A model generated the notes under the pieces. The model was not told the DNA's origin and ran no database searches. It worked only from the letters and a program-made list of their open reading frames with translations. Made by a program: the position numbers and the translations under genes. DNA of 64,000 nt from Kordia antarctica (GTDB taxonomy: Bacteria > Bacteroidota > Bacteroidia > Flavobacteriales > Flavobacteriaceae): positions 4,431,501 to 4,495,500 of the forward strand of contig NZ_CP019288.1 in NCBI RefSeq assembly GCF_009901525.1, written 5' to 3'. Positions 7,276 to 24,695 of the stretch are shown here, piece by piece. Position 1 is the first letter of the stretch. Every line of letters starts with the position of its first letter.

Positions 7276-7815
7276 TTGAATTCTAAAGAACAAAACTCTG
7301 CAAATCTTCAATCATTAAATGATTTAATCACTGCTCTTTGCGAAGAGGAGAGGACAAATTATGATAATATTATACGTTCTGCGAATTTGCCAAATGGCGA
7401 TTTTACTGACTATAGCTCATGGTCTGATGAATGTTACGCCCGAAATTGTATTATTGAAAACGAAGAGTTTGAACTGATTCTATTATGTTGGGAAGCAGGA
7501 CAAAAAACAGCGATTCACGATCATGGTGGAGAAGAATGTTGGGTGAAAATTATTCAAGGTGAATTTAAAGAAACAAGATACGAAAAAGACGAAACTGGTG
7601 CGCTAATCAGTACTTCTTCACTAATTTCAAAAGCAAATAATGTTACCTATATGATAGATTTTATGGGCTATCATTGCTTAGAAAATATCTCCAAAAAAAG
7701 AAGCATGTCTCTTCATCTATATGCAAAACCAATACGTAATTGCAATGTATTTGATGAAAAATCAAGCCAATTCATAAGTAAGAATTTGTCTTATGATACG
7801 TTTCCTTGTGATTAG
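7276..7815 (+). CDS. cdo: Cysteine dioxygenase, Cys-Tyr cofactor type
   Basis: A 179-residue cupin that oxidises cysteine to cysteine sulfinate with Fe(II) and O2. The iron ligands are His81 and His83 (AIHDH) and His133 (GYHCLEN). Cys88 and Tyr149 occupy the positions of the mammalian thioether cofactor pair, and the SLHLY string (Ser145-His147-Tyr149) matches the mammalian catalytic triad. The start is TTG: no ATG occurs before residue 126, and AAAAGG sits 9 nt upstream. The next gene is a PLP decarboxylase, which points to hypotaurine formation. Confidence 0.88.
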   Translation: MNSKEQNSANLQSLNDLITALCEEERTNYDNIIRSANLPNGDFTDYSSWSDECYARNCIIENEEFELILLCWEAGQKTAIHDHGGEECWVKIIQGEFKETRYEKDETGALISTSSLISKANNVTYMIDFMGYHCLENISKKRSMSLHLYAKPIRNCNVFDEKSSQFISKNLSYDTFPCD

Positions 7816-7837
7816 CAAAAAACTTAAAAAAAAATGA

Positions 7838-9220
7838 ATGTCTGATATAAATAGTGATATTACTTTGTTTAATGAGCTTATTGAAATCTTATTAAAAGAA
7901 GAAGAAAATAACCCAGTTGCTGACCGAATTGAAGCAAATAAACTATACGATGCTGTTGATTTATCACTAAATGATTCAGCAATGATGGATGATGAGTTTA
8001 AGGTTGCGCTTCAAAACGTTCTGATAGCTACTCCAAAAACGGCAACAAATTTATTTTTTAATCAATTATTTGGTGGAAGACAAAGCAAAGCTGTTTTAGG
8101 TGATTTACTTGCCGTAATGCTAAATAACAGCATGTATACATACAAAGTTGCGGGTCCTCAAGTTGGTATTGAGCAGGAAATTATCAGAAAATCTTGCGAG
8201 TTAATTGGGTATGGAACGCAAAGTAATGGAACATTTCCAACAGGCGGATCTATGAGTAATTACATGGCGTTGGTTATGGCGCGAGATGCTAAAGATCCTG
8301 AGTGTAGATCAAAAGGAATGTCCAAGCCAATGGTCATATACACTTCCAAAGAATCACACTATTCGAATGCAAAAAATACAAGTTTTACAGGAATAGGAAG
8401 AAATAATATTCGCCACATAGAAGCCGATTCAAAAGGACGAATGATTCCAGAAAAATTAGAAGCGCAAATCATTGCCGATCTGAATGATGGATATGTGCCA
8501 ACATATGTGAATGCTACGGCAGGAACAACCGTTTTAGGTGCTTTTGATCCGATAGACAAAATTGCTACGATCACAGAAAAATATGATATTTGGCTACATG
8601 TTGATGGCGCATATTGTGGAAGTGTAATTTTTAGCGAACACTATAAACATCTTGTAAAAGGAATGGAAAAATCTAATTCATTCAGTTACAATGCACACAA
8701 AATGCTTGGAACGCCTTTAACGTGTTCTATTATATTAGTCAACGATAAAAAACATTTACACAATTCGTTTAGTATTGAAGCCGATTACTTGTATCAAACA
8801 GACGGAGATGATTTTAACCTAGGTAAAACTTCGTTTCAATGCGGAAGAAGAAATGATGCCTTGAAGTTTTGGACACTCTGGAAATCTGTTGGAACACTTG
8901 GTTTAAAGCAAATTGTTGATCATCAATTTGATTTGGCAGCTACTGCACGCGATTACATCAAAAATAATTCTGATTACACTTTATATAGTTTTGATGACTC
9001 AATTTCTATCTGTTTCAATTACAAAAACATTGATCCAACAATACTCTGCACTGCACTATATGAGCATCAAATTACTGTTGTAGGCTTCGGATCTTTCAAT
9101 GCCGACACTTTCGTGAGATTGGTCACTGTAAATGCAAACAATACCAAACAAGACATACTAAACTTCTTTAAAGTACTTGAAACATTCGTTGAGGAAAACC
9201 CAGCTCTTATTGCTAAGTAA
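7838..9220 (+). CDS. Group II PLP decarboxylase, probable cysteine sulfinate decarboxylase
   Basis: A 460-residue glutamate/aromatic amino acid decarboxylase-fold enzyme. The PLP lysine is Lys288 in SYNAHKML, the PLP-ring aspartate is Asp256 in HVDGAY, and a Gly/Ser cofactor loop (PTGGSMSNY) lies at about 134-142. It starts 22 bp after the cysteine dioxygenase gene; a preceding ATG at 7834 is closed at once by a stop. Side by side with the dioxygenase, decarboxylation of cysteine sulfinate to hypotaurine is the most economical reading. Glutamate or aspartate decarboxylation cannot be excluded from motifs alone. Confidence 0.78.
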   Translation: MSDINSDITLFNELIEILLKEEENNPVADRIEANKLYDAVDLSLNDSAMMDDEFKVALQNVLIATPKTATNLFFNQLFGGRQSKAVLGDLLAVMLNNSMYTYKVAGPQVGIEQEIIRKSCELIGYGTQSNGTFPTGGSMSNYMALVMARDAKDPECRSKGMSKPMVIYTSKESHYSNAKNTSFTGIGRNNIRHIEADSKGRMIPEKLEAQIIADLNDGYVPTYVNATAGTTVLGAFDPIDKIATITEKYDIWLHVDGAYCGSVIFSEHYKHLVKGMEKSNSFSYNAHKMLGTPLTCSIILVNDKKHLHNSFSIEADYLYQTDGDDFNLGKTSFQCGRRNDALKFWTLWKSVGTLGLKQIVDHQFDLAATARDYIKNNSDYTLYSFDDSISICFNYKNIDPTILCTALYEHQITVVGFGSFNADTFVRLVTVNANNTKQDILNFFKVLETFVEENPALIAK

Positions 9221-9469: not shown

Positions 9470-9646
9470 ATGAAAAAATCACTTTTAAATTTGAAAGGCG
9501 TTCAAGAATTATCTAAAAATGAGCAAAAAAATATTGCTGGAGGTTGGCATTTAATCCGTAGATGTGGCGGAGATGGTTCATTTATATTCGTTGATGGGAA
9601 AAAAGTTTGTTGTTATGTACCATGGAGTGGTTACTATCTTTGCTAA
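9470..9646 (+). CDS. Double-glycine-leader peptide, bacteriocin/RiPP-like precursor
   Basis: A 58-codon gene. The first 25 residues (MKKSLLNLKGVQELSKNE, then QKNIAGG) form the leader type widespread in Bacteroidota, with the ELS..E-I-GG pattern cleaved after GG by peptidase-containing ABC exporters. The 33-residue core is rich in Gly, Trp and Tyr and has four Cys (32, 47, 48, 58), enough for two disulfides or thioether rings. A strong terminator follows directly. No exporter or modifying enzyme is in the window, so processing must occur in trans. Antimicrobial or signalling function is inferred from the leader only. Confidence 0.75.
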   Translation: MKKSLLNLKGVQELSKNEQKNIAGGWHLIRRCGGDGSFIFVDGKKVCCYVPWSGYYLC

Positions 9647-9672: not shown

Positions 9673-9706
9673 AAACCGCTTTAAAACTATTTTAAAGCGG
9701 TTTTTT
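9673..9706 (+). terminator. Terminator of the peptide gene
   Basis: AAACCGCTTTAAAA (9673-9686) and TTTTAAAGCGGTTT (9690-9703) are exactly complementary with a 3-nt loop and a T-run. Nearly the same hairpin recurs at 20491-20524. Confidence 0.85.
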
Positions 9707-10270: not shown

Positions 10271-11587
10271 ATGATTAAAGAAATAACTAAATCTCAAGAA
10301 CTCTTCGAAAGAAGAAAAAACGCTGTGGCAAATGGCGTTGGTGTTTTTAATACAGCGACTGTAAAAGAGGCAAAAGGAGCTATCATTATAGATGCTGACG
10401 GACGCGAACTTATCGATTTTGCAGGAGGTATTGGAGTAGTGAATGCAGGTCACTGTCCAGAGTCAGTTGTAGCTGCCATACGTGAGCAAGCAGGGAAATA
10501 TCTACATACCAGTTTTAACGTAGTTACGTATGAACCTTACATAGCTTTATGTGAAGAACTTGCAGAAATTTTACCTCATGGTGAAAAAACAAAAGTCATG
10601 TTGGTTAGTACGGGTGCTGAAGCTGTAGAAAATGCTATAAAAATAGCGCGTCAAGCAACAAAAAGACCCGCAATACTTTGCTTTACAGGAGCGTATCATG
10701 GTCGTTCCTTAATGGCTATGACGTTAACTAGCAAAATTAGCTATAAGTATGATTGTGGACCATTTGCGCCTGAAGTATATCGTCTTCCTTTTCCGAATTT
10801 TTATAGATATCACGGAAAACGAACTATGGATGAATTTGTGGAAGACGAACTCAAACGACTTCATGAAAGTGCGCTGAATCTTGTAGATGTAAAAAGCGTA
10901 GCTGCCGTAATTTTAGAACCTATTCAAGGTGAAGGCGGATTTAATGCCATTCCTAAAAAGTACCTAGAAGGATTGCGAGATTTTTGCGACTTGCATGGTA
11001 TTGTCTTAATAATGGATGAAGTGCAAAGTGGATTCTGTCGTACAGGACATTGGGCAAGTTGGCAGCATTACGGTGTACAACCCGATATTAGTACGTACGC
11101 CAAATCTATGGGTTCTGGATTACCTATTGGCGCAGTCATTGGGAAAGCAGAAATAATGGATGCTGCAGCTATTGGTTCCATTGGTGGAACTTACATTGGA
11201 AGTCCTATATGCTGTGTTGCTGCATCTGCTACCATTAAATACATGAAAGAAATTGATTTGAATGAAAAAGCAGTCAAAGTTGGTCAAGTCATTATGGCTA
11301 GATTGCAAAAATTAATGAAACAACATTCGATAATCGGTGATGTAAGAGGTGTTGGAGCAATGATAGCCATTGAGTTTGTTAATAACGGAGATCCAACACA
11401 GCCCAATTCCGAAATATGCCCTCAAATAGTAAGAGGTTGTGCCGATAATGGTTTAGTAGTAATAAGTGCAGGAACTTATAAAAATGTACTACGAATTTTA
11501 TCACCTTTAGTAATTACAGACGAACAATTAGAAAAAGGGTTATTCATTTTGGAAACCGAAATTAAGAAAGCAATACACAATATATGA
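10271..11587 (+). CDS. gabT: Class III aminotransferase, GABA/5-aminovalerate type
   Basis: A 438-residue PLP enzyme that moves an omega-amino group to a keto acid, giving a semialdehyde. The PLP lysine is Lys278 in STYAKSMGSG, the PLP aspartate is Asp249 in LIMDEVQSGF, and STGAEAVENA and AYHGRS bind the cofactor phosphate and ring. The string ILEPIQGEGG is typical of GabT/ornithine aminotransferases. It overlaps the amidase gene by 4 nt (ATGA). An aldehyde dehydrogenase closes the cluster, so amino acid to semialdehyde to dicarboxylate is a natural pair of steps. GABA versus 5-aminovalerate or beta-alanine is not resolved. Confidence 0.85.
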   Translation: MIKEITKSQELFERRKNAVANGVGVFNTATVKEAKGAIIIDADGRELIDFAGGIGVVNAGHCPESVVAAIREQAGKYLHTSFNVVTYEPYIALCEELAEILPHGEKTKVMLVSTGAEAVENAIKIARQATKRPAILCFTGAYHGRSLMAMTLTSKISYKYDCGPFAPEVYRLPFPNFYRYHGKRTMDEFVEDELKRLHESALNLVDVKSVAAVILEPIQGEGGFNAIPKKYLEGLRDFCDLHGIVLIMDEVQSGFCRTGHWASWQHYGVQPDISTYAKSMGSGLPIGAVIGKAEIMDAAAIGSIGGTYIGSPICCVAASATIKYMKEIDLNEKAVKVGQVIMARLQKLMKQHSIIGDVRGVGAMIAIEFVNNGDPTQPNSEICPQIVRGCADNGLVVISAGTYKNVLRILSPLVITDEQLEKGLFILETEIKKAIHNI

Positions 11588-12525
11588 AACCATTCGCAAT
11601 AGCAGGAATACAAATGAAAGTATCAGCTGTCGTTTCTAACGTAGAAATGATGAAGTTGAAAATTGATATTACCATGAATCTTTATCCGTGGACACAAATG
11701 ATTGTGTTTAGTGAATTATGTGCTTTCGGACCGCTAACACATGCAGCACAAGCAATACCTAATAACTTTGAAGCAGAAATGCGAGCAAAAGCGAAAGAAT
11801 ATGGAATATGGTTACTACCTGGTTCTATATTTGAGAAAAGTGAAGGTAAAATTTATAATACCGCAACAGTTATCAATCCAAAAGGGAAGATTATAAAAAG
11901 ATATCGCAAAATGTTCCCATTCTATCCGTACGAAACAGGAATAACACCTGGGAATGAATATTGTGTATTTGATGTGCCAAAAGTAGGAAGATTTGGTATT
12001 TCTATTTGTTATGATATGTGGTTTCCAGAAACGATTCGTACCTTAACCACTATGGGAGCAGAAGTTATTTTGCATCCAACGATGACAGGAACTATTGATC
12101 GCGAGATTGAATTATCGATCGTTAGAGCAATGGCTTCTGTAAATCAATGTTATTTCTTTGATGTCAATGGATTGGATACAGGAGGTTGTGGTCGTTCTAT
12201 TGTTTGTGGACCAGATGGTCGTGTACTACATCAATCTGAAGGAACGGAAGAAATTATTCCATTAGAGTTAAATATTGATCGTGTAAAAAGAAGTCGCGAA
12301 CTAGGTATTTTACGCTTAGGACAACCGCTAAAAAGTTTCCGTGACCATATTAAGAGCGGTAAATTTGCAATTTATCAACCCAATATACCAACACCTTACT
12401 TAGATTCTTTAGGGCCGTTGATAAAGCCAACACGATTAGATAAACTAGCCGAATTAAAAATTAAGGAAACTACGTTAGAAAAGCAAACTGCTCCAATTCA
12501 CTATAAAGGAGATACAATTAAATAA
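11584..12525 (+). CDS. Nitrilase-superfamily amidase
   Basis: A 313-residue carbon-nitrogen hydrolase. The catalytic triad is visible: Glu44 (VFSELCAFGP), Lys109 (KRYRKMFPF) and Cys142 (GISICYDMWFPE). Family members in amino acid breakdown include omega-amidase, 5-aminovaleramidase and N-carbamoylputrescine amidase. It starts inside the aminotransferase stop, so an amide-to-acid step linked to the transaminase substrate or product is likely. True nitrilase activity is less likely given this setting, but motifs do not decide it. Confidence 0.82.
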   Translation: MKPFAIAGIQMKVSAVVSNVEMMKLKIDITMNLYPWTQMIVFSELCAFGPLTHAAQAIPNNFEAEMRAKAKEYGIWLLPGSIFEKSEGKIYNTATVINPKGKIIKRYRKMFPFYPYETGITPGNEYCVFDVPKVGRFGISICYDMWFPETIRTLTTMGAEVILHPTMTGTIDREIELSIVRAMASVNQCYFFDVNGLDTGGCGRSIVCGPDGRVLHQSEGTEEIIPLELNIDRVKRSRELGILRLGQPLKSFRDHIKSGKFAIYQPNIPTPYLDSLGPLIKPTRLDKLAELKIKETTLEKQTAPIHYKGDTIK

Positions 12526-12538
12526 AAAATAAAAACAA

Positions 12539-12940
12539 ATGGGTGATCTAAGATCAGGCAAAAAAGCAGAAAAAATAAAAAATTATATAAGTTGGTTTGA
12601 AATACCTGCAATAGACTTTAAGGAAGCAGTTAACTTCTATCAATATATTTTTGGAATTACCATGCAACAGAATATTACAGCTTCTAATGCAATGGCATAT
12701 TTCCCTACAACCACAGGTATTGGCGGTGCTGTTGTGGCTGGTTCAGGGTATGTGCCTAGTGATTCTGGTTCCTTGATTTATTTGAATGGTGGTGTGAATC
12801 TAAGTTTAGTTCTTGATAAAGTAGAGCCAGCTGGAGGACGTATCATTATGCCAAAAACATTAATATCTGAAGAAGCTGGATACTTCGCTGTCTTTATTGA
12901 TTCTCAAGGAAATAAACTAGCATTACATTCTAAAAATTAA
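12539..12940 (+). CDS. VOC/glyoxalase-fold protein
   Basis: A 133-residue single-domain vicinal oxygen chelate protein. The start ISWFEIPAIDFKEAVNFYQ and the end AVFIDSQGNKLALH match the paired beta-alpha-beta3 modules. It begins 13 bp after the amidase. VOC proteins include lyases, dioxygenases and metal-free binding proteins. Metal ligands are not obvious here: few His or Glu occupy the usual positions, so a non-catalytic or accessory role is possible. Confidence 0.75.
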   Translation: MGDLRSGKKAEKIKNYISWFEIPAIDFKEAVNFYQYIFGITMQQNITASNAMAYFPTTTGIGGAVVAGSGYVPSDSGSLIYLNGGVNLSLVLDKVEPAGGRIIMPKTLISEEAGYFAVFIDSQGNKLALHSKN

Positions 12941-13065
12941 AAACCATATCAAAAAAATAATGTTCAAGTTCATACTAGGTTTCCTTCTCTTTTTTCTTTT
13001 CCAAAAAGGAACGGGCACGTTTACCTTTGCTTATGAATTTTGTTGACTTCTGCTAGTTTAAAATT

Positions 13066-13117
13066 TATACCATTTATTGTTTTAACTTACTGTAAAAGAG
13101 AATAACTAATGGTATTA
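13066..13117. repeat. Short inverted repeat before the decarboxylase
   Basis: TATACCATTTATT (13066-13078) faces AATAACTAATGGTATTA (13101-13117); the reverse complement differs by a short insertion. The TA(A)TACCA end resembles the ends of the larger element at 57163-57320. A TACCTTTG box at 13022-13029 could be the -7 of a promoter for the downstream genes, although no TTG lies at the right distance. Confidence 0.4.
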
Positions 13118-13174
13118 CTTAATAAATTAATTTCATCCTCATTTTATTTAATAAGATGAACTATAAGAACATCA

Positions 13175-15928
13175 ATGACAAAAAACCAAGGAATATTAAA
13201 CACCAAATTAAAAAGCTCACCTTATTATAACATTGGTCAGTTACGAGTAGACTACTGGAATAAATTGAAAATTGAAAGTTCAGAGTTAGCGCGTTGTAAT
13301 AAAGGTTCAGCAAATGAAAAAGCACACAAGGAATCAGTAAAAAATTTGATCAAGGACTTAAAAGGAGTCGAATGTTATTTTGCTTCGCCAGGAATTGGGC
13401 GTATGCTAAAATTAGAAAATTCACTTTCTAATCATGAACATACTTCGTTATCAAATCTAATAGCTGAAACTACCAAAGATTTAGTAGGTGATAGTTACAG
13501 AAGCAATCCTGATTATATAGATTATGATGAGCATAGTATTGAATCTGTCGAAGAACATGAACAACAGAACAGTGTTCGGAAAAATCATTTTGAGGTATTA
13601 TTTATAGATGACATTTCTGAAAAAGAAGAAAGTAGTTTAAAACGTAGCCTTATGTCATTACGGGCAGCGAATGACAAATTTACGTATGGAGTCGTTGTAC
13701 AACGATCTTTTCAAGATGCGCTGATTGCCTTGCACTTTAATCACAATATCCAAGCAGTTGTAGTACGATATGCGCCGCCGTATCGTTCTAAAGAAATTTC
13801 ACCGCTCATAAAACCATACATTCAACCTGTTACAAACCTTAATTTTTCTTCAAAATCTGAAACTGATCTTGGGCCATTAATAGGAGAACTAATTGATCGA
13901 TTCAGACCAGAATTAGATGCCTATTATGTAACTGACACATCACTTGGACATTTAAAAGACAGTACGATCAAGCGTTTCAAGCGTATCTTTTATCAAACAG
14001 AAGACATACTAGAACTCCATCTAACAATTCTTCAAGGTATTGAGGAACGATTTGAAACTCCTTTCTTTTCTGCTTTAGTCGAATACAGCAAAAAGCCAAC
14101 TGGTGTTTTTCACGCGATGCCAATATCAAGAGGAAATTCGGTTTTCAAATCGAGATGGATTAACGACTTTGGCGATTTCTATGGTAGAAACATGTTTTTG
14201 GCAGAAACATCTGCAACAACTGGTGGTTTAGATTCTTTATTACAACCAACTGGGCCACTTAAAAAGGCGCAAGAAATGGCGAGAGATGCCTACGGTTCGC
14301 AATACACTTATTTTGTGACCAATGGAACTTCAACAGCAAACAAAATTGTGATGCAGGCACTTGTTGAGCCCGGAAACGTAGTGCTTATTGATAGAGATTG
14401 TCATAAATCGCACCATTACGGATTGGTTTTAGTAGGCGCTTATCCAGTATATTTAGATTCATATCCAATAGAAAAATATTCAATGTATGGAGCTGTGCCT
14501 TTAGGACAAATTAAAGGTAGATTATTACAATTAAAAGAAGCAGGCAGACTGGATAAAGTGAAAATGTTATTGCTTACCAACTGTACGTTTGACGGAATGG
14601 TGTATAATGTGGAGCGCGTTATGGAAGAAGTCTTAGCTATAAAACCAGACATGATATTTTTATGGGATGAAGCTTGGTTTGCCTTTGCAGGATTTGCAAA
14701 TAATTACAAACAACGTACGGGAATGTATGTTGCTAAAAAACTCTACGAAAAATACAATAGTAGTGGCTACAGAAAAAAATATGCTGAATACACAAAAGGG
14801 TTAAAAGAGGATGAAACTTCTTTACTACCAGATCCTGATAAAGTACGTATACGAGTATACGCCACACAAAGTACGCATAAAACACTGAGTAGTTTCAGAC
14901 AAGGTTCTATGATCCATATTTGGGATCAGGATTTTCGTAGAAAAAGTGAAACCACATTTTTAGAAGCGTACATGACACATACGTCTACATCGCCAAATTA
15001 TCAAATGTTAGCTTCATTAGATGTTGGAAGGCGTCAAGTTCAACTAGAAGGGTTTGAGTTGGTAGAAAAAAGTATTGAAATGGCAATGGTTTTTCGTGCA
15101 AAAGTGAATAACAATCCGCAATTGAGTAAGTACTTTGATATATTAACGGTACATGATTTTATTCCAAACAAATACCGACAAACTGGACTGAAAGAATATT
15201 ATACCAAACATGAAGGTTGGAATCTTATGGATGATGCTTGGGAACAAGACGAGTTTGTACTCGATCCAACAAAAATAACCTTACATATTGGTAAAACTGG
15301 TGTTGATGGTGATACGTTTAAGAACAAATACTTGATGGATAAATTCAATATCCAAATCAATAAAACATCTAGAAATACGGTATTATTCTTAACGAATATA
15401 GGAACCACCAAAGGAAGTATTACGTACTTAACCAACGCACTATTAAAAATTGCAGATGAACTGGATGAAGAGTTTAAGTCATTAAGTGCTAAGGAAATGG
15501 AAATTAGGCAAAACCGAATTCATTCCTTAACAAAAGAAGTGCCTCCACTACCAGATTTCAGCTACTTTCATCACTCATTTCAAGCGGTTCCTGGAGTTCC
15601 AGGAGGCGATTTGCGTGCCGCTTATTTCTTGGCATACAAAGAAGAAAACTATGAGTACATTCCATTAAACGATTGTTTAGATGCGATGCAAAATGATAAA
15701 GTTTTAGTAGCTTCTACTTTCGTAATTCCATATCCTCCAGGATTTCCAGTGCTAGTTCCTGGTCAAGTAGTAAGTGAAGAAATCATCAATTTCATGACTG
15801 CGTTAGATGTGAGTGAAATTCACGGATATCGTGCCGATTTAGGATTGAGAATCTTCAAAGAAAGCGTATTAAACAGGCATAAAACAGCAACGTCTTTTGG
15901 CGGAATGAATATCAAAAATAATAATTAA
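13175..15928 (+). CDS. Orn/Lys/Arg decarboxylase family protein, long form
   Basis: A 917-residue fold-III-type basic amino acid decarboxylase, about 150-200 residues longer than usual for the family. Residues about 1-310 hold a response-regulator-like wing domain with an extra N-terminal part. The PLP domain has SATTGGLDSLLQPTG, WDEAWF (Asp498) and the lysine in TQSTHKTLSSFRQGS (Lys569). The product would be putrescine, cadaverine or agmatine. It is followed 26 bp later by the ATP-grasp gene. Substrate is unresolved; some family members act differently, so decarboxylation itself is known from the family rather than shown. Confidence 0.85.
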   Translation: MTKNQGILNTKLKSSPYYNIGQLRVDYWNKLKIESSELARCNKGSANEKAHKESVKNLIKDLKGVECYFASPGIGRMLKLENSLSNHEHTSLSNLIAETTKDLVGDSYRSNPDYIDYDEHSIESVEEHEQQNSVRKNHFEVLFIDDISEKEESSLKRSLMSLRAANDKFTYGVVVQRSFQDALIALHFNHNIQAVVVRYAPPYRSKEISPLIKPYIQPVTNLNFSSKSETDLGPLIGELIDRFRPELDAYYVTDTSLGHLKDSTIKRFKRIFYQTEDILELHLTILQGIEERFETPFFSALVEYSKKPTGVFHAMPISRGNSVFKSRWINDFGDFYGRNMFLAETSATTGGLDSLLQPTGPLKKAQEMARDAYGSQYTYFVTNGTSTANKIVMQALVEPGNVVLIDRDCHKSHHYGLVLVGAYPVYLDSYPIEKYSMYGAVPLGQIKGRLLQLKEAGRLDKVKMLLLTNCTFDGMVYNVERVMEEVLAIKPDMIFLWDEAWFAFAGFANNYKQRTGMYVAKKLYEKYNSSGYRKKYAEYTKGLKEDETSLLPDPDKVRIRVYATQSTHKTLSSFRQGSMIHIWDQDFRRKSETTFLEAYMTHTSTSPNYQMLASLDVGRRQVQLEGFELVEKSIEMAMVFRAKVNNNPQLSKYFDILTVHDFIPNKYRQTGLKEYYTKHEGWNLMDDAWEQDEFVLDPTKITLHIGKTGVDGDTFKNKYLMDKFNIQINKTSRNTVLFLTNIGTTKGSITYLTNALLKIADELDEEFKSLSAKEMEIRQNRIHSLTKEVPPLPDFSYFHHSFQAVPGVPGGDLRAAYFLAYKEENYEYIPLNDCLDAMQNDKVLVASTFVIPYPPGFPVLVPGQVVSEEIINFMTALDVSEIHGYRADLGLRIFKESVLNRHKTATSFGGMNIKNNN

Positions 15929-15954
15929 CCATTAATTAAAACAAAATAAATAGT

Positions 15955-17505
15955 ATGGCTACTAAAAAAACAACACCAACTAAAAAAGCTGCGTCAGCTA
16001 AAAAGGCAGTACCAACTAAAAAAAGAACAACAGCAAAAAAAAGTAAAACTGTTGAGGTACTTGACGGCGTTCCAGATATAAGACGTTTCTTTTACAAAAA
16101 TGAAATTCCATTATACTTTATCAGTGCGACTAATTTTAATATGTTAGGAACAGATGAATGGATTAAAGGATTCAAATTTATCTGTAACATCGAATGTTTT
16201 GACGGACAACACCCAAATGTTTTTTCTCCAAAAGAAGAAATTCCTCATGACGATTTTACGTGTATCGAAGACATCAATAACTACTTATTACAACATCCAG
16301 AAGTACAGGATTACTTAAAAACAAGAAGTACTGGCAAAAAAGCAGGGAAAGCAATGTTTCTAATGTTCAATGAAGAAACCGAAAAGCTTGCTAAAAAATT
16401 GGGCTTAGAAATAATGTTCCCAAGTGCAAAAATGAGAACTTTTCTAGATAACAAGGTCAATACCAATCGTATTGCGGAAAGAGCAGGAGTTCCATGTGTG
16501 CCTTATGTGCTTTCTCGTGTAAAAGACTATGCTCATTTATGTGAAGTTTCAAAAGTATTAGGAAAAGATCTTGTGATACAAACACCTTTTGGAGATTCTG
16601 GTCACACCACGTTTTTCATCACGAATGAAGAAGAATTCAAAAAACATGAAGAAGAGATTATAAAAGAGAAGGAAGTAAAAATCATGAAACGGATCAACTG
16701 TAAAGGTTCTGCAATTGAAGCGTGCGTTACAAGACATGGAACTCTTGTGGCACCTTTAATGACAGAATTGGTTGGTTTTAAAGAAATGACACCATACAAA
16801 GGTGGTTGGTGTGGTAATGAAATCTATCCAGATGCATTTAGTCCACAATTAAGAAAGAAAGCAGCAAAGTACACGCAATTATTTGGAAATCAACTAAGAG
16901 AAGAAGGATACAAAGGATATTTTGAATTAGATTTTCTGATAGATCAAGACAATGGCGAAATCTATTTAGGTGAATTAAATCCACGAGTTACAGGCGCAAG
17001 TTCAATTACAAATCACGCCGTTTTCGCTTTGGCAGATGCACCACTTTCTATATTCCACATTATGGAATGGATGGATGTTGACTACAAACTAAATGTAAAC
17101 GCAATAAACAGACGTTGGGCAAAACAAGCAAACATTGATAGTTGGAGTCAACTAATCATAAAGCACACAGAAGATACTGTTGAATATATCTCTGAAGCTC
17201 CAAAATCAGGAATCTACAAAATGTTTGATAACGGACACATTCAATTTGACCGTTTAGATACGCACAGAAGAGCTGTGGAAACGGAACAAGAAGCGTTCTT
17301 TTTACACATTTCTAAAAAAGGAGATTACTTATATGAAGGTGCAGACATCGGAATTTTAGTATCAAGAGGTCGTATGATGACGGATGATTTCAAACTAAAC
17401 GATCGCGCTAAGCAATGGATAAAAGTTATCCGAAGTAAATACGTATCTCAAATGGTAGAAGACAAAAGAGTACCAGTTGGACTTACAGGTAGCTTAACAA
17501 AATAA
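15955..17505 (+). CDS. ATP-grasp ligase with a lysine-rich N-terminal tail
   Basis: A 516-residue protein. Residues 2-32 are almost only Lys, Thr, Ala and Pro (KKTTPTKKAASAKKAVPTKK) and resemble a histone H1 tail. An ATP-grasp fold follows, with a lysine/loop segment (DLVIQTPFGDSGHTTFFI) and the metal-binding end FELDFLIDQDNGEIYLGELN-PR (Glu, Asn). ATP-grasp enzymes join a carboxylate to an amine or thiol by acyl phosphate. There is no biotin-carboxylase partner here, and the neighbours make or break amines, so it may amidate a diamine or amino acid. Substrates are unknown. Confidence 0.75.
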   Translation: MATKKTTPTKKAASAKKAVPTKKRTTAKKSKTVEVLDGVPDIRRFFYKNEIPLYFISATNFNMLGTDEWIKGFKFICNIECFDGQHPNVFSPKEEIPHDDFTCIEDINNYLLQHPEVQDYLKTRSTGKKAGKAMFLMFNEETEKLAKKLGLEIMFPSAKMRTFLDNKVNTNRIAERAGVPCVPYVLSRVKDYAHLCEVSKVLGKDLVIQTPFGDSGHTTFFITNEEEFKKHEEEIIKEKEVKIMKRINCKGSAIEACVTRHGTLVAPLMTELVGFKEMTPYKGGWCGNEIYPDAFSPQLRKKAAKYTQLFGNQLREEGYKGYFELDFLIDQDNGEIYLGELNPRVTGASSITNHAVFALADAPLSIFHIMEWMDVDYKLNVNAINRRWAKQANIDSWSQLIIKHTEDTVEYISEAPKSGIYKMFDNGHIQFDRLDTHRRAVETEQEAFFLHISKKGDYLYEGADIGILVSRGRMMTDDFKLNDRAKQWIKVIRSKYVSQMVEDKRVPVGLTGSLTK

Positions 17506-17510
17506 AATAA

Positions 17511-17672
17511 TTGAGTTATACACTTAAGTAATTGTATAAAGTTATAATTATCAGACACTTAATTTTGCTTAATGCCATTTAAAGGATAATCTTTATAAGA
17601 GTTTAGCTTTTTAAGCATGGAATATGCAGTTAACCATTTGATTATCAATAAAGAACTAAGTGTATAACTCAA
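17511..17672. mobile_element. MITE-like element with perfect terminal inverted repeats
   Basis: TTGAGTTATACACTTA (17511-17526) is the exact reverse complement of TAAGTGTATAACTCAA (17657-17672). The 162-bp unit is flanked by direct repeats TAAAATAA (17503-17510 and 17673-17680), which look like an 8-bp target duplication. The left copy begins with the stop codon of the ATP-grasp gene. There is no coding frame inside, so it would need a transposase in trans. No second copy is in this window. Confidence 0.65.
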
Positions 17673-17711
17673 TAAAATAAATAGTATTTGCTCATAAATA
17701 GTATTCAAATT

Positions 17712-17863
17712 AGGCTGTCTAAAAAGTCAAAATTTCGTCAAACCGAACCTTTAGACTGTCGCTCAAGACAGGCTTGATTCGGTTTCTCATCATCATTGAA
17801 AATCAGTGTAATGAGATTCTGAATCAAGTTCAGAATGACGCTTTTAAAACTTTTAAGACAGCT
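17712..17863. repeat. Intergenic repeat, copy B, with terminal inverted repeats
   Basis: The ends AGGCTGTCTAAAAAG and CTTTTAAGACAGCT are near-perfect inverted repeats. The middle matches copy A at 3292-3392 block by block, plus an inserted segment of about 25 bp containing CTGTC...GACAG. It lies between the ATP-grasp and C45 genes and runs up to 19 bp before the C45 start codon. Confidence 0.75.
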
Positions 17864-17881
17864 TTAAAATTAAAAAAAACA

Positions 17882-19072
17882 ATGCAATTAAATTTTAAGA
17901 CGGTTTCAGAACCTACAATAGCAGGAGCCAAATGGAAAGGATTATTTGATACCTATTGGGCAGGATACAAAACGTGGTTTTTGTCAAAAGACACGGTAAA
18001 TACACCAGATTTAAAGACTTCACAAGATGCGCTAAAAAAATACATGCCTAAAATGTGGTCAACGTATGAGCATCTGTGTGCACTAACCAATGCTGATCCA
18101 GTTAAAGCTCGTTTTCTAACAGGATTTCAGCCGCCAGCATACATAAGTGCTTGTGCGCAAGCAATTATAAAAGCAGATGAAATTCAACTAGTTCGCAATT
18201 ATGATTATCATCCAGACTTACTCGAAGGCACAATACTGCTCAGTAAATGGAATGATCAGAAAGTTATGGGAACTTCCGATTGTCTCATTGGAATTGTAGA
18301 TGGTATGAACGATTCAGGACTTTGTGTTTCTCTAACTTTTGGTGGCAGAAAAGAAGTTGGTTACGGATTCGGGATTCCTTTCATTCTAAGATATGTGTTA
18401 GAATTTTGCAAAACCACAGCTCAGGCAGTAAAGGAATTAAAAAAAATTCCGTCGCATATGTCATATAACGTGACTGTGGTTGACAAAAAGGGAGCTTCCA
18501 AAACAGTAATGTTAGCTCCTGACAAAAAACCATTAGTTACAAATGATGCGTTCGCTACAAATCATCAAGGTGAAATAGATTGGCCTGAAAATGCGCAGTT
18601 CAATCAAACAATAAAGCGTTACAACTTCATTAAAAATTACTTAAAATCGAAAAATATCAGTGCTAATGAATTAGCGAAAGCTTTCTTACATTATCCTTTA
18701 TATAACACAAAATTTACAGAAGGGTTTGGAACGTTATATACCTCAGTGTATCAGCCAGAAAAGTTAATCATGAAAGTTCTTTGGCCCAATGTAGCCATAG
18801 AAAGAAGTTTTGATGATTTTGCTGAAGAAAATATCCTGATTAACTACAGCACTATTAGTCAGCCAGTGATTTCTGAGAATGCGTGGGAACCAGTTACAGC
18901 AGAAACCCCAGATTACAGATGGCAAGATGCAGTTGTAGATTCGCTAGTGAAGAGTATGGCCGAACAGAAGACAAAAAAGAAACAAAAAGAGCTTCGGGAT
19001 CGTTTAATGCCTGGAGGCGAAATAGCTTGGGAAGTATTAGTAGATTACTGGAACGAGCCTGTCAAATATTAA
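17882..19072 (+). CDS. C45/Ntn-type amidohydrolase (choloylglycine hydrolase fold)
   Basis: A 396-residue cysteine Ntn hydrolase. Cys91 in YISACAQ is the likely nucleophile exposed by self-cleavage, and Arg105 and Asp108 (VRNYDYH) stand where bile salt hydrolase has Arg18 and Asp21. The later GIVDGMNDSGLCVSLTFGG also fits C45 acyltransferases. The ATG at 17882 was chosen because a longer frame from 17774 adds 36 residues translated from a repeat element (it contains NQVQNDAF). The fold hydrolyses or transfers amide-linked acyl groups. It starts 25 bp before the aldehyde dehydrogenase, so unmasking an N-acylated amino acid is plausible. Confidence 0.75.
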   Translation: MQLNFKTVSEPTIAGAKWKGLFDTYWAGYKTWFLSKDTVNTPDLKTSQDALKKYMPKMWSTYEHLCALTNADPVKARFLTGFQPPAYISACAQAIIKADEIQLVRNYDYHPDLLEGTILLSKWNDQKVMGTSDCLIGIVDGMNDSGLCVSLTFGGRKEVGYGFGIPFILRYVLEFCKTTAQAVKELKKIPSHMSYNVTVVDKKGASKTVMLAPDKKPLVTNDAFATNHQGEIDWPENAQFNQTIKRYNFIKNYLKSKNISANELAKAFLHYPLYNTKFTEGFGTLYTSVYQPEKLIMKVLWPNVAIERSFDDFAEENILINYSTISQPVISENAWEPVTAETPDYRWQDAVVDSLVKSMAEQKTKKKQKELRDRLMPGGEIAWEVLVDYWNEPVKY

Positions 19073-19097
19073 TTTGGTGTATTTAATTGTATAAACT

Positions 19098-20456
19098 ATG
19101 GAATTCAAAAGTATCAATCCTTACAATGGTGAGGAAGTTGGGTCGTATACTGCGCTGTCTGAAGATGAATTAAATGAAAAGCTAAACAGAAGCCAAATTG
19201 CTTTTAAATCTTGGAAAAACGTTTCCATTACTGAACGTTGTCAGCTTATAAAAAAAGCAGGTCAAGTATTGCGTGATAATGTAGAAGAATATGCCAAAAT
19301 GATTACACTGGAAATGGGGAAACCTATTTCAGAATCTCGCGGGGAAGTGAATAAATGTGCTTTGGTTTGTGATTATTATGCCGATAACGCGAAATCTTTT
19401 TTAGCTGATGAAATCATCGAAACAGATGCATCACTTAGCTTTGTAAAACACGATCCAATAGGAACTGTTTTAGCAATAATGCCCTGGAATTTTCCTTTTT
19501 GGCAAGTATTTAGATACGCAGCGCCAACATTAATTGCGGGAAATACAGGTTTATTAAAACACGCACCTAATGTATTTGGTAGTGCCAAATTAATAGAAGA
19601 AGTATTTACAAAAGCTGGTGTACCAAAAGATGTTTTTCAAAACCTAATTGTTCACCACGACCAAACAGAGAACATAATTTCGCATGATGCTGTACGAGCA
19701 GTTACGCTAACAGGAAGTGAAAGAGCAGGTTCGGCTGTTGCCGAAATTGCAGGGAAACATATCAAAAAAACACTGTTGGAACTTGGTGGAAATAATGCTT
19801 TTATTGTTTGGGAAGATGCAGATATTGACAGTGCTGTAAAAACGGCTATCACTGCGCGCATGCTAAACTGTGGGCAAAGTTGTATTGCAGCCAAACGTTT
19901 TATCTTACTAGAAGCTATATATGATGAATTCGTCACAAAATTCACCAAAGCGGTACGTGATTTAACATCAGGAGATCCTTTAGATGAAACTACAAAAGTT
20001 GGTCCATTGGCACGTAAAGATTTAGCAGATGAACTCAACAAACAAGTTAAAAAATCTATAAAATTAGGTGCTGAATTACTCCTTGGCGGAAATCAAAAAG
20101 ACTGTTACCACGAACCTACAATTCTTGGGAATGTAACACCTGGAATGCCAGCTTTTGATGAAGAAACTTTTGGTCCGGTAGCGGCTATGATAAAAGCAAA
20201 AGATATTGAACACGCTTTTGCACTTTCAGAACAATCCAAATACGGACTTGGTGTTACGGTCTGCACAAAAAATATAGAAAAGGCTATTGAGTATGCTGAT
20301 AAAGTTAGTGATGGCGCTTATTTTATTAACGAATTGGTAAAATCGGATCCGAGATTGCCTTTCGGCGGAACAAAAAAATCAGGTTACGGACGTGAATTGT
20401 CAAAAGATGGTATTCTTGAATTTGTCAATAGAAAAACGGTCTACGTGAAAAAATAA
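19098..20456 (+). CDS. Aldehyde dehydrogenase, succinate-semialdehyde type
   Basis: A 452-residue NAD(P)-dependent ALDH close in layout to the Sad/YneI-type succinate-semialdehyde dehydrogenases. The catalytic Cys262 is in NCGQSCIAAKRF, the general base Glu228 in LLELGGNNAF, the oxyanion Asn131 in PWNFPFW, and Lys154 binds the cofactor. It is the last gene of the cluster and would oxidise the semialdehyde made by the aminotransferase. Succinate versus glutarate semialdehyde is not resolved. A strong terminator follows at 20491. Confidence 0.88.
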   Translation: MEFKSINPYNGEEVGSYTALSEDELNEKLNRSQIAFKSWKNVSITERCQLIKKAGQVLRDNVEEYAKMITLEMGKPISESRGEVNKCALVCDYYADNAKSFLADEIIETDASLSFVKHDPIGTVLAIMPWNFPFWQVFRYAAPTLIAGNTGLLKHAPNVFGSAKLIEEVFTKAGVPKDVFQNLIVHHDQTENIISHDAVRAVTLTGSERAGSAVAEIAGKHIKKTLLELGGNNAFIVWEDADIDSAVKTAITARMLNCGQSCIAAKRFILLEAIYDEFVTKFTKAVRDLTSGDPLDETTKVGPLARKDLADELNKQVKKSIKLGAELLLGGNQKDCYHEPTILGNVTPGMPAFDEETFGPVAAMIKAKDIEHAFALSEQSKYGLGVTVCTKNIEKAIEYADKVSDGAYFINELVKSDPRLPFGGTKKSGYGRELSKDGILEFVNRKTVYVKK

Positions 20457-21411: not shown

Positions 21412-22686
21412 TTACGTTGGAAACTTAGCTCTAATAGCATCCAAACACAAATTATGAATACTACCAACATGCGTATGTTTTTTAGACATATCTGGTTTAT
21501 AAGTTCCATCTTGGATTTCACCACCAATTTTTTGATACGCATCTCTAAAAGAAACGCCATCTACTACTAAATTATTAATGCTATCCACGGTAAAAAGGTA
21601 TTGATATTTTTCATTTGTTAGATCAATGTCTTTCACGCGAACTTGCTGAATGGAATGATTAAATATTGCCAAAATATCTTTTACGTCTTCAAATGCCGCG
21701 ATTATATTTTCTTTTAACAATTGAAAATCACGATGATAACCACTTGGTAAATTATTTGTAATCAAAATCATCTCAGTTTGCAAAGCTTGAATCTTATTAC
21801 ATTTACCTCGAATCAATTCAAAAACATCAGGATTCTTCTTATGTGGCATAATGCTACTTCCCGTAGTTAATTCATCGGGAAAAGTAATAAAATCAAAATT
21901 CTGACTCATATACAAGCAAATATCCATGGCAAATCGTGACAACGTATTACACAAACTTCCCAAAGCTGCGGAAATAGTTCGTTCACTTTTTCCACGACTC
22001 ATTTGTGCAGCAACTACATTATACTTTAGGGTGCTAAAGCCTAATTCTTGTGTTGTAAAATTTCTATCAATAGGAAATGAACTTCCATATCCAGCGGCTG
22101 AACCGAGCGGATTTTGATCTACAGTTTTCAATGCGGCATTCAATACATATACGTCATCAATTAGCAATTCGGCATACGCCGAAAACCACAATCCGAAAGA
22201 AGAAGGCATCGCGACTTGCAAGTGTGTATAACCAGGTAATAACGCTTCTTTATGCGTTTCTGCGAGTGCTAAAAGTGTGTCAAAAAAAGTTTTTGTATCA
22301 GCAATAATCAATTGTAAATTTTCTTTATAAAATAACTGTAATGCTACCAAAACTTGATCATTTCGAGAGCGCGCTGTATGAATCTTTTTTCCAACATCGC
22401 CGTACTTTTTAGTAAGTTCAAACTCAATTTTAGAATGTGAATCTTCAAATTGCGATTCTATCACAAAAGTTCCGTTGGTTACTTGCAATTGAAGTTCCTC
22501 TAAACCTTCTAACAATTGTTGGAGTTCTTCCGAAGAAATAATACGAATCTTTTCCAACATTTTTGCATGCGCTACTGAAGCTTGAATATCATATTTCGCA
22601 ATATGAATATCAATTTCCCGATCGTTTCCAACCGTAAATGCTTCTATTTTCTTATCAATACTAATTCCTTTATCCCAGAGTTTCAT
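21412..22686 (-). CDS. argH: Argininosuccinate lyase
   Basis: A 424-residue member of the fumarase/aspartase superfamily that splits argininosuccinate into arginine and fumarate. The signature loop GSSIMPHKKNPD carries the catalytic serine, and HTARSRNDQV and the TGSS region are intact. It is the last gene of the operon, 169 bp after the ArgE-like gene; that gap holds a hairpin and low-complexity repeats. Length is slightly under the usual 450-470 residues but no motif is missing. Confidence 0.93.
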   Translation of the reverse strand: MKLWDKGISIDKKIEAFTVGNDREIDIHIAKYDIQASVAHAKMLEKIRIISSEELQQLLEGLEELQLQVTNGTFVIESQFEDSHSKIEFELTKKYGDVGKKIHTARSRNDQVLVALQLFYKENLQLIIADTKTFFDTLLALAETHKEALLPGYTHLQVAMPSSFGLWFSAYAELLIDDVYVLNAALKTVDQNPLGSAAGYGSSFPIDRNFTTQELGFSTLKYNVVAAQMSRGKSERTISAALGSLCNTLSRFAMDICLYMSQNFDFITFPDELTTGSSIMPHKKNPDVFELIRGKCNKIQALQTEMILITNNLPSGYHRDFQLLKENIIAAFEDVKDILAIFNHSIQQVRVKDIDLTNEKYQYLFTVDSINNLVVDGVSFRDAYQKIGGEIQDGTYKPDMSKKHTHVGSIHNLCLDAIRAKFPT

Positions 22687-22704
22687 AAATTTTTCTTCTT
22701 TTTC

Positions 22705-22747
22705 ATTCCTGCGCGCTCACTGAGTTTATCGAAGTGAAGGCAGGAAT
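22705..22747. repeat. Hairpin repeat between the argE-like gene and argH
   Basis: ATTCCTGC (22705-22712) and GCAGGAAT (22740-22747) are complementary. Inside, TCACTGAGTTTATCGAAGTGA is nearly palindromic. Such stem-loops are common dispersed repeats in bacterial genomes. It lies within the transcribed operon, followed at 22750-22850 by AAAATC and TTTTCACTT low-complexity runs. Confidence 0.55.
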
Positions 22748-22855
22748 ATTTTTTATTTAAAATCAAAATCAAAATCAAAATCGCTTCGCTTTCAGAAACT
22801 AGACTTTTCACTTTCAACTTTTCACTTTTAGTTTTCACTTTTTACTCTCAACTTC

Positions 22856-23920
22856 TCACAATATTTCTCTCAACAACCTAACATACAAATCAATACCTTC
22901 CTCAATTTCCCGAACATAAATAAACTCATCGGCTGTGTGCGAACGCGTACTATCGCCAGGACCTAATTTCAAAGACGGACACGACAATACTGCCTGGTCC
23001 GATAAAGTTGGCGAACCATACGTTTCTCTACCCAAAGCAATTCCGGCTTGTACCAAAGCATGTTCCACAGGAATTGAAGATGAATTCAATTTAATGCTTC
23101 TCGGAATAATACTGTCGCAAGGCGATTCTTTCTGAAGAATTTCAACAATATCAGTGTTCGAATATGCATCATTCACACGAACATCTACGACCAATTCTAC
23201 ATTCGCAGGAACGGCATTATGTTGTTTTCCAGCATTAATTTGTGTAACGGTCATTTTCACATCGCCCAAAGCGGAAGATGTCTTTTCAAACGTATAATCT
23301 TGAAACCATTTCAACACATCAATCGTATTATAAATAGCATTATTCGTATTTGGATGTGCGGCGTGGCTCGGCGTTCCTTTCACAACAGCATCAAAAACCA
23401 CCAATCCTTTTTCGGCAACCGCCAATTGCATCAATGTTGGCTCTCCGACAATAGCGACATCAATTTTTGGAATGATGGAAAGCATACTATTCAGTCCATC
23501 TTTTCCGCTGCTTTCTTCTTCTGCGGAAGCGACGATAAGCAAATTATATTTTAAGTTTTGTTGATTATAAAAGTGTGTAAATGTAGCAATCAATGAAACC
23601 AAACAACCGCCAGCGTCATTGCTTCCCAAACCGTACAATTTCCCGTCTTCAACAATCGCTTCAAACGGATCTTTTGTATAGCCATTATTTGGTTTTACGG
23701 TATCGTGATGCGAGTTTAATAACAACGTTGGCTTACTTTCATCGAAATGTAAATTGGTTGCCCAAACGTTATTTTTAGTTCGTGTAAAAGGAATTTCATA
23801 CTGCTGAAACCAATTTTCTATCAATTTTGCAGTAGCGTCTTCTTCCGAAGAAAAAGAAGGCGTTTCAATAAGATGTTGCAGCAAAGCAATTGCATCACTT
23901 GTTAGTTGTTGAATGTTCAT
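22856..23920 (-). CDS. argE: M20 metallopeptidase, N-acylornithine deacylase (ArgE-like)
   Basis: A 354-residue zinc amidohydrolase. The metal site strings LLNSHHDTVKP and ASAEEESSGKDG are clear, with the dimerisation domain inserted in the middle (about residues 175-285). In this pathway it would act on the N-acylated intermediate; in Bacteroidota the acyl group may be succinyl rather than acetyl. It overlaps argB by 4 nt, indicating coupled translation. Confidence 0.88.
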   Translation of the reverse strand: MNIQQLTSDAIALLQHLIETPSFSSEEDATAKLIENWFQQYEIPFTRTKNNVWATNLHFDESKPTLLLNSHHDTVKPNNGYTKDPFEAIVEDGKLYGLGSNDAGGCLVSLIATFTHFYNQQNLKYNLLIVASAEEESSGKDGLNSMLSIIPKIDVAIVGEPTLMQLAVAEKGLVVFDAVVKGTPSHAAHPNTNNAIYNTIDVLKWFQDYTFEKTSSALGDVKMTVTQINAGKQHNAVPANVELVVDVRVNDAYSNTDIVEILQKESPCDSIIPRSIKLNSSSIPVEHALVQAGIALGRETYGSPTLSDQAVLSCPSLKLGPGDSTRSHTADEFIYVREIEEGIDLYVRLLREIL

Positions 23921-24693
23921 TTTTGAATAGTTGTGTGCGTTATATTTTCATTGAAAAGCATTGCTGGTTTTCCAATGCAAATTTTTTGTACTTGATGTTC
24001 TAGTGCGTAAAAACAATTTTTGAGTTTGGGCAACATTCCATCTGAAATAGTGCCATCTTTTAATAAAGTTTGATAGGTTTCTGTGTTGATGTTTTCAATT
24101 ACTGAATCATCGTCATTAATATCTTTTAATACACCATTTTTTTCGAAACAATAATACAATTCGGTGCGATACGCTTTCGCGAAAGCAATTGCTAATTCAG
24201 AAGCAATCGTATCTCCATTTGTGTTTAATAATTGCCCATTTTCATCATGTGTAATAGCCGAAAAAACAGGTGTAATTCCGTTATCTAGTAAAACTTGAAT
24301 AATTGGTGTATTTACTTTTTTTACATCGCCAACAAAACCGTAATCAACTTCTTGAATCGGGCGTTTTTCAGAAACAATACTATTTCCGTCAGCTCCAGAA
24401 AAACCAACGGAATTACAGTTGTTTGCTTGTAATTTAGCAACAATTGTTTTATTCACTTTTCCTGCATACACCATGGTGATAATGTCTAAAGTTTTCGCAT
24501 CCGTAATTCGTCTTCCTTCATTCATTACAACTTCAACGTTCATTTCTTGCGCTAATTTGGTTGCTAATTTTCCGCCACCATGAATCAATATTTTTGGAGA
24601 TTTTAGTTGCGCAAAATCTTCTAAAAAAGAATTCAATGCATCTTCATCATCAATAATATTCCCACCTATTTTTATGACTTTCAATGTTTGCAT
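23917..24693 (-). CDS. argB: N-acetylglutamate kinase (acylglutamate kinase)
   Basis: A 258-residue amino acid kinase. KIGGNIIDDE and LIHGGGKLATKLA near the N-terminus bind ATP phosphates, and NTNGDTIASELA is the typical C-terminal nucleotide loop. It phosphorylates the N-acylglutamate side chain. It lies 2 nt after the carbamoyltransferase and overlaps the ArgE-like gene. It is short compared with typical ArgB (about 280-300), as in other Bacteroidota. Confidence 0.92.
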   Translation of the reverse strand: MQTLKVIKIGGNIIDDEDALNSFLEDFAQLKSPKILIHGGGKLATKLAQEMNVEVVMNEGRRITDAKTLDIITMVYAGKVNKTIVAKLQANNCNSVGFSGADGNSIVSEKRPIQEVDYGFVGDVKKVNTPIIQVLLDNGITPVFSAITHDENGQLLNTNGDTIASELAIAFAKAYRTELYYCFEKNGVLKDINDDDSVIENINTETYQTLLKDGTISDGMLPKLKNCFYALEHQVQKICIGKPAMLFNENITHTTIQK

Positions 24694-24695
24694 AA

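Follow-up and report, generated by a model that had tools for sequence, protein, structure and literature searches.

Two described systems stand closest to the gene block considered here, namely the Puu pathway of Escherichia coli (PuuA, PuuB, PuuC, PuuD and PuuE, together with Sad) and the 4-aminobutyrate (GABA) shunt (GadB, GabT and GabD or Sad). The block lies in a 64,000-nucleotide stretch of the Kordia antarctica genome (the window; NZ_CP019288.1, positions 4,431,501 to 4,495,500 of the forward strand), which comes from a single-contig genome of 5.5 Mb. It consists of seven genes, here called AT3 (aminotransferase), NIT (amidase), the small gene (for a 133-aa protein), OKR (decarboxylase), GRASP (ligase), C45 (hydrolase) and ALDH (dehydrogenase). 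Tentatively, and giving this reading the most weight, we regard the cassette as a possible self-contained and horizontally spread catabolic module, which would lead through an amide intermediate to succinate with GABA or a close omega-amino acid as its hub.

Like the Puu pathway, the cassette contains what appear to be an amide ligase and a hydrolase, its aminotransferase is 40.7% identical to PuuE, and its dehydrogenase is 46% identical to E. coli Sad. The proteins that fill the shared places differ, however. PuuA is glutamine-synthetase-like whereas the cassette ligase is of the ATP-grasp type, and where the pathway has the PuuD type of hydrolase the cassette has the nitrilase and C45 types. 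The cassette also includes a decarboxylase, has no PuuB-type oxidase, and has an ALDH that is not PuuC-like (29% identity to PuuC, 32% to GabD). With the GABA shunt it shares the combination, in a single run, of genes for a decarboxylase, a GABA-transaminase-like enzyme and an enzyme like succinate-semialdehyde dehydrogenase, but the shunt decarboxylase belongs to PF00282 and the cassette enzyme to the OKR fold, and the cassette adds a ligase and amidases.

Single cassette enzymes have further relatives. Rv2531c of Mycobacterium tuberculosis aligns to residues 19-905 of the 917 residues of OKR (803 bits) and carries the same altered motifs, which are described below. Its structure is available (PDB 9N0O, with 9n0n and 9n0p as other entries), and it is listed without a known activity (PMC12910592). 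C45 has the fold of isopenicillin N acyltransferase 2x1c (Foldseek E 2.5e-13, template modelling score 0.60), with 14% identity in the structural alignment. The butirosin enzymes BtrJ, BtrK and BtrG resemble the cassette by description: an ATP-grasp glutamyl ligase, a pyridoxal phosphate (PLP) decarboxylase that makes a GABA unit, and removal of the glutamyl cap, all on a carrier protein and in antibiotic synthesis. We regard the cassette as a variation on the GABA shunt or Puu pathway, built around two families that are poorly understood, rather than as a system of an entirely new kind. No description of it was found in the open-access literature searched by titles and the beginnings of abstracts, which does not prove that none exists.

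Conservation and spread of the cassette

Using a list of open reading frames (ORFs) and family searches, we found all seven genes on the plus strand between 10271 and 20456, where an earlier sequence-only reading had placed seven co-directional genes; six of them have family matches (Table 1). The same reading had labelled the 133-aa protein as VOC, which could not be verified, since no Pfam or NCBIfam family matched the protein at E 1e-3.

Loci in other genomes were sampled via relatives of GRASP, and the counts therefore tell how often the other genes accompany GRASP, not the reverse. A tblastn search with GRASP (E up to 1e-3, one genome per species) gave at least 505 stretches, and the best 80 were kept as loci. 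Of these, 54 were fully flanked, that is, with at least 6.5 kb before and at least 5 kb after GRASP. The fully flanked loci contain OKR without exception, AT3 and NIT in 53 cases each, the small gene in 47 and ALDH in 46. C45 is present in 38 of them (37 times on the same strand) and was not found in the other 16, so the constant hydrolase is NIT, not C45. The five core genes are all present in 46 fully flanked loci, with order and strand kept in every one. Eight loci fetched from hits in related genomes and across the phylum and overlapping partly with the best-80 set, hold AT3, NIT, OKR, GRASP and ALDH in the order of the window (8/8, one ALDH being 29% identical), with C45 in seven and the small gene in four. 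This conservation, in 8/8 related loci and 46/46 flanked ones, excludes a chance grouping.

Beyond the seven genes, ORF clustering placed no other family in more than 10 of the 80 loci. Among the 19 other clusters seen in at least five loci, one is a truncated OKR, and the rest, according to the scanned representatives, are regulators, channels, redox enzymes, a permease and the like. No amine-oxidase-type protein or second class III aminotransferase was found among the representatives of clusters from at least five loci, a screen that did not extend to rarer neighbours or to the rest of the genome. The block therefore travels as a separate piece.

Strong GRASP matches (E < 1e-200) were found in 3 of 40 related genomes, K. 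antarctica included, and in none of 10 further congeneric genomes; another five of the 40 have weak, carboxylase-like matches only. Among 395 genomes spread across the phylum, GRASP is present in seven, again including its own. The record titles of the 80 loci name Bacteroidota, Ignavibacteriota, Calditrichota, Balneolaceae-type bacteria, Planctomycetota and Acidobacteria, many of them for metagenome-assembled genomes, so that titles are possibly wrong. Among 396 genomes around the Acidobacteria-titled one, two more carry a rearranged AT3-ALDH-NIT-OKR-GRASP set at 41-53% identity, and neither C45 nor the small gene was detected in their stretches. As defined by this diverged, rearranged set, the cassette core is AT3, ALDH, NIT, OKR and GRASP. 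A scan of IMG/VR with the window ligase showed no viral relative of GRASP at that sensitivity.

Plasmids carry relatives of the cassette as well. GRASP relatives were found on 32 of 72,556 plasmid records (23 with at least 80% query coverage), and 12 of the 32 were inspected. Beside GRASP, these 12 have C45 in 11 cases, OKR in 8 (two split or truncated) and NIT in 7. The sequence-only reading had proposed a search for the neighbourhood in other genomes as its test, and the ATP-grasp and C45 genes are indeed neighbours far beyond chance, in flanked loci and plasmid contexts alike. Roseobacter ponti has gabT, NIT, OKR, GRASP and C45 within 11 kb, together with an oligopeptide-type ATP-binding cassette (ABC) transporter. 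In Cupriavidus necator N-1, NIT-GRASP-C45 is accompanied by ALDH and a dipeptide-type transporter, and OKR is not in that stretch. C45 relatives are found apart from GRASP as well (107 plasmid records versus 32), and at the one such locus inspected, in Sulfitobacter, C45 lies among unrelated genes. OKR relatives without GRASP are found on the plasmids with antiporter genes described below, at another place in Roseateles XES5 and in Sinorhizobium meliloti ml66.

The cassette varies in its smaller details. An Lrp/AsnC regulator gene lies directly before AT3 in 10 loci of Salegentibacter, Gillisia and relatives (for example L050, L059 and L071). In five loci without C45 (L033, L038, L042, L057 and L092), a 233-aa family occupies the slot between GRASP and ALDH, and it is also found just downstream in L036 and L037. 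We considered the 233-aa protein as a PuuD-like replacement and dropped the idea, as the two members scanned have no Pfam match. Brumimicrobium loci L029 and L031 have a tandem pair of C45 genes inside the cassette. An amino acid permease gene stands between OKR and GRASP, or after the cassette, in L103 (8393-9835) and in Algoriphagus L067, L078, L084 and L091, hinting at transport of a cassette substrate or product.

In the window, the C45 frame has a TTG (17774) as its first codon, in apparently intergenic DNA, and the relatives aligned with it start close to or exactly at the ATG at 17882, the position given in Table 1. The 376-base gap before it (17506-17881) contains a palindrome-like sequence, TTCTGAATCAAGTTCAGAATGACG, that resembles a dispersed repeat.

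Table 1. Genes of the cassette in the window, with the best family match of each product
Product	Position	Strand	Family match
AT3, class III aminotransferase, GABA-transaminase-like	10271..11587	+	Aminotran_3 PF00202, 394 bits
NIT, nitrilase-superfamily amidase	11584..12525	+	CN_hydrolase PF00795, 101 bits
Small 133-aa protein ('VOC' in the sequence-only reading)	12539..12940	+	no family match
OKR, 917-aa PLP decarboxylase, OKR fold	13175..15928	+	OKR_DC_1 PF01276, 263 bits
GRASP, ATP-grasp ligase	15955..17505	+	NCBIfam NF005096/PRK06524 'biotin carboxylase', 786 bits (cut-off 684)
C45, N-terminal nucleophile (Ntn) amidohydrolase/acyltransferase	17882..19072	+	NF040521 C45 proenzyme, 162 bits (cut-off 85)
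ALDH, succinate-semialdehyde type, Sad-like	19098..20456	+	Aldedh PF00171, 451 bits

Residue signatures of the cassette enzymes

OKR has the fold of its family by PF01276, and the catalytic lysine is kept in 72/72 cassette and 13/13 plasmid members. Identity to AdiA, CadA and SpeF is 23-28%, and the motifs depart from theirs. PGHxGG is found in these three enzymes only and is absent from the window OKR, the 72 cassette members, the 13 plasmid members and two diverged relatives. Arginine stands where AdiA, CadA and SpeF have glycine in the PGHxGG stretch, and also where they have serine after the catalytic lysine, in each case in all 72 cassette and all 13 plasmid members. The glutamate of their YPPG...PGE motif is replaced by glutamine in 72/72 cassette and 12/13 plasmid members, the other being a split frame. 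The two diverged members share the altered motifs. The presumed roles of these residues are those known for AdiA. In a tree, a very long and fully supported branch separates the OKR family from AdiA, CadA and SpeF, with a warning about long branches from the tool itself. The nearest solved chain is 9n0n, a probable amino acid decarboxylase (E 3.5e-240).

A related OKR clade on plasmids of Ensifer, Rhizobium, Phyllobacterium and Rhodobacter directly adjoins genes of the aspartate-alanine-antiporter (AspT) type in 15/15 records, and the antiporter records listed (60 of 64) include none of the remaining 23 OKR records. Loci L143, L144 and L145 show the family decarboxylase beside aspT-type antiporters, perhaps as a decarboxylation/antiport pair. 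Taken together, the altered motifs, the long branch and the AspT neighbours of the related clade indirectly favour an acidic or amide-bearing substrate for OKR. The enzyme is probably other than an ordinary basic-amino-acid decarboxylase, and its substrate would probably not be ornithine, lysine or arginine. The Orn/Lys/Arg decarboxylase of the sequence-only reading is thus not supported by motifs, identity, branch length or neighbours.

GRASP keeps Lys167, Asp326, Glu340, Asn342 and Arg344 in 38/38 sequences. Several ATP and magnesium positions of AccC are thereby kept (equivalents of Lys116, Glu288, Asn290 and Arg292, with Asp for Glu276). The carboxylase residues of AccC are absent, as far as a distant alignment can tell: Lys238 is replaced by Thr in 38/38, Glu296 by Ala in 36 and Leu in 2, and Arg338 by Ile, Val or Leu in all 38. 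We take Lys238, Glu296 (presumably the base) and Arg338 to be the biotin-carboxylase residues, and with all three missing a biotin-dependent carboxylase was set aside. A structure search with a fair model (predicted local distance difference test, pLDDT, 72.8) returned the ATP-grasp fold, with carboxylases, PurK, carbamoyl-phosphate synthase and L-amino-acid ligase scoring alike.

The NIT triad of Glu44, Lys109 and Cys142 is conserved, each residue being present in 74 of 75 aligned sequences and the remaining one being a gap. The C45 model, a confident one (pLDDT 86.4), has 2x1c as its best structural match. Cys91, which we take to stand at the expected nucleophile position, is found in 35/35 relatives, and the same cysteine is present in 8/8 aligned plasmid homologues. 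Going by family membership, GRASP is likely to make a putative amide that NIT and C45 would break, in a context linked to GABA. Three database names in the cassette look misleading, namely biotin carboxylase, Orn/Lys/Arg decarboxylase and C45 peptidase.

AT3 is 43.5% identical to E. coli GabT and 32.8% to PatA. The residues I50, R141, E211, K268, Y298 and R398 (GabT numbering) are kept in the window protein and in 62/62 cassette relatives longer than 400 aa, and Ile50, Arg141, Glu211, Lys268 and Arg398 are also present in three distant AT3 proteins; PatA, a putrescine transaminase, has lysine at position 141. We presume that these residues act as they do in GabT. The nearest solved chains are GabT and PuuE, and the next-best match to AT3 in its own genome is 34% identical. 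With these signatures AT3 resembles GABA transaminases more than diamine ones. ALDH has a paralogue elsewhere in the same genome (53% identity).

Candidate routes to succinate

In the reading that we tentatively prefer, GRASP would spend ATP on linking an amine, as an amide, to a carboxylate that probably belongs to an amino acid (glutamate, for example). OKR would decarboxylate an amino acid with an acidic or amide distal end, which could be free glutamate or the amide conjugate itself. NIT would then cut the amide and free the omega-amino acid, with help or backup from C45 where it is present. AT3 would convert the omega-amino acid to succinic semialdehyde, and the Sad-like ALDH would convert succinic semialdehyde to succinate. 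We infer that the flow runs in this direction and that GABA is the hub; a near homologue such as 5-aminovalerate is possible. Plasmid contexts speak for GABA as hub, both the R. ponti run with gabT and the Shinella-type gene set described below. GABA may be supplied by OKR in full cassettes, and by arginine/ornithine genes in a plasmid type known from Shinella (see below). The amide may be an obligatory intermediate, with the conjugate decarboxylated first and cleaved afterwards, or it may mask a chain derived from ornithine. If OKR forms GABA or a GABA amide directly, no amine oxidase would be missing from the full cassettes.

A number of observations weigh against this reading. Direct decarboxylation of glutamate would require neither ligase nor amidase, and we can name no partner that would be worth the cost in ATP. 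The AspT-linked OKR clade is separate from the cassette clade (branch of 1.13 changes per column), so its substrate may differ, and its 15 records represent only about four lineages (10 Ensifer, 3 near-identical Rhizobium, Phyllobacterium and Rhodobacter). GRASP has glutamine at the position of AccC Lys159 in 38/38 sequences, which means that the ATP site differs or that the alignment is off there. ALDH is undetected in 8 of the 54 fully flanked loci, and in L100, L101 and L104 it comes from another ALDH branch (29-31%). The aminotransferase near the Pseudorhodobacter cluster does not have the GABA-transaminase residues. Finally, plasmids without OKR carry arginine/ornithine genes and a permease with an AA_permease_C domain, which we take to be typical of cationic amino acid carriers; this combination fits a masking of ornithine better.

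Such masking belongs to a Puu-like route, on balance unlikely but the most serious competitor. Here GRASP would attach an acid, for example glutamate, as a mask to ornithine, lysine, arginine or a diamine, the free end would be turned into an aldehyde and then an acid (by AT3 or an outside enzyme, and ALDH), and NIT or C45 would unmask GABA or 5-aminovalerate. Masking would prevent the cyclisation of 4-aminobutanal. If GRASP acts first on ornithine, the substrate reaching OKR would already be masked, and this would account for a non-basic pocket. The pairing of GRASP with C45 speaks for this route, as does one plasmid context in which NIT, GRASP and C45 stand among genes that look like an arginine/ornithine-to-GABA set. 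Plasmids of Shinella, Roseateles XES5 (a record flagged as unverified for organism) and Sinorhizobium RAC02 hold NIT, an Lrp regulator adjoining it, an amino acid permease, GRASP, C45, ALDH and RidA together. The cluster also contains an agmatinase-family protein, a 5-guanidino-2-oxopentanoate decarboxylase homologue, a D-amino acid dehydrogenase and an ornithine-racemase/arginase fusion, and a set of this kind would yield GABA. We count the three plasmids as one context, since the gene order is common to all and the Shinella and RAC02 copies are 90-97% identical. The keto-acid decarboxylase of the cluster has a homologue in IlvB1 of S. meliloti (an AruI homologue), for which a sevenfold higher activity with 5-amino-oxopentanoate is reported, also in favour of a masked route; the terms 'biotin carboxylase' and 'glutamyl' are absent from the main text of that paper (PMC7268258). 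The portion of a second source that was covered contains nothing bearing on the cassette genes (PMC4431377).

The full cassettes themselves argue against the Puu-like route. The OKR motifs are changed and the related clade has AspT neighbours, AT3 shares with GabT the arginine at position 141 (lysine in PatA), the recurrent neighbour families are without an amine-oxidase-type protein or second class III aminotransferase, and ALDH resembles Sad, not PuuC. The sequence-only reading had proposed a route of this kind, with masking and unmasking of amines. Of that proposal the ligase-hydrolase pair in a GABA-linked context survives, and three other parts do not, namely the identity of the decarboxylase, the aminotransferase as replacement for an amine oxidase (AT3, being GABA-transaminase-like, is a poor candidate) and an essential C45 as a strict stand-in for PuuD, given the 16 loci in which it was not found and the near constancy of NIT.

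A more far-reaching form of the preferred amide route is doubtful. GRASP would couple a partner to glutamate or to the side chain of ornithine, an OKR of new specificity would act on the conjugate, perhaps oxidatively, and NIT and C45 would free GABA for the shunt to succinate. C45 might hand the acyl group directly to another acceptor, which would spare ATP, and the Rv2531c family would then consist of decarboxylases of conjugates or acidic amino acids.

Distinctly improbable, in our view, is a biosynthetic module for producing and recycling an opine-, rhizopine- or signal-like amide metabolite derived from the OKR product, with AT3 and ALDH merely salvaging the omega-amino acid. It would agree with the patchy spread and plasmid carriage, and with the rhizobial version, in which OKR-GRASP-C45 occurs and NIT is not in the stretches seen. 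This version lies directly beside nifHDKEN in R. leguminosarum Vaf10 (one case) and also beside an ABC-transporter/amidase/serine-hydrolase block. Typical catabolic enzymes nevertheless accompany GRASP nearly everywhere (AT3 and NIT 53/54, ALDH 46/54), and no gene for export or tailoring is shared by more than 10 of the 80 loci. Least probable of all is a Dav-like route, in which OKR would oxidatively decarboxylate an amino acid to an amide or aldehyde, NIT would act like DavA, AT3 and ALDH would act as DavT and DavD, and GRASP and C45 would be accessory: it would need no oxidase, would make OKR the equal of the racemase, dehydrogenase and keto-acid decarboxylase of the Shinella-type cluster, and matches what we take to be the family make-up of DavA-DavT-DavD, but we know of no OKR-fold enzyme with an oxidative decarboxylation of this kind, the Shinella type and Cupriavidus N-1 have NIT but no OKR in the cluster, and GRASP would be left without a role despite its company with OKR in 54/54 GRASP-chosen loci and 8/12 inspected plasmids.

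Flanking DNA and meaning of the cassette

Upstream of the cassette, the plus strand encodes a cysteine dioxygenase (PF05995) followed by a PF00282 decarboxylase (7276-9220), possibly a pair for the conversion of cysteine sulfinate to hypotaurine. This pair was rejected as part of the cassette, as it accompanies none of the 54 fully flanked loci. Between it and AT3, a 58-aa ORF on the plus strand (9470-9646; MKKSLLNLKGVQELSKNEQKNIAGGWHL...) has the look of a bacteriocin-like peptide with a double-glycine leader, and a terminator-like hairpin follows at 9673-9703. Directly beside the cassette on its other side, the minus strand carries arginine-biosynthesis-like genes (21412-28986; a Lyase_1 protein, a class III aminotransferase and an argininosuccinate synthase), a neighbourhood for which no recurrence was seen in the other loci. 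The segment 30001-32114 has about 23% G+C and two ORFs (213 and 320 aa) without a Pfam match, and is possibly recent foreign DNA. No Rfam element was found in the window, and promoter-like sites (36 versus a shuffle mean of 45.1) and terminator-like sites (7 versus 5.8) are at about shuffle level.

The cassette forms a close-knit and widespread enzyme unit, apparently uncharacterised so far, found in marine and soil bacteria of several phyla by record titles. Its decarboxylase is close kin of a mycobacterial enzyme with a solved structure and no known reaction. Assigning the cassette enzymes could settle several protein families at once, and may uncover a route that could take the place of the Puu pathway or the GABA shunt.

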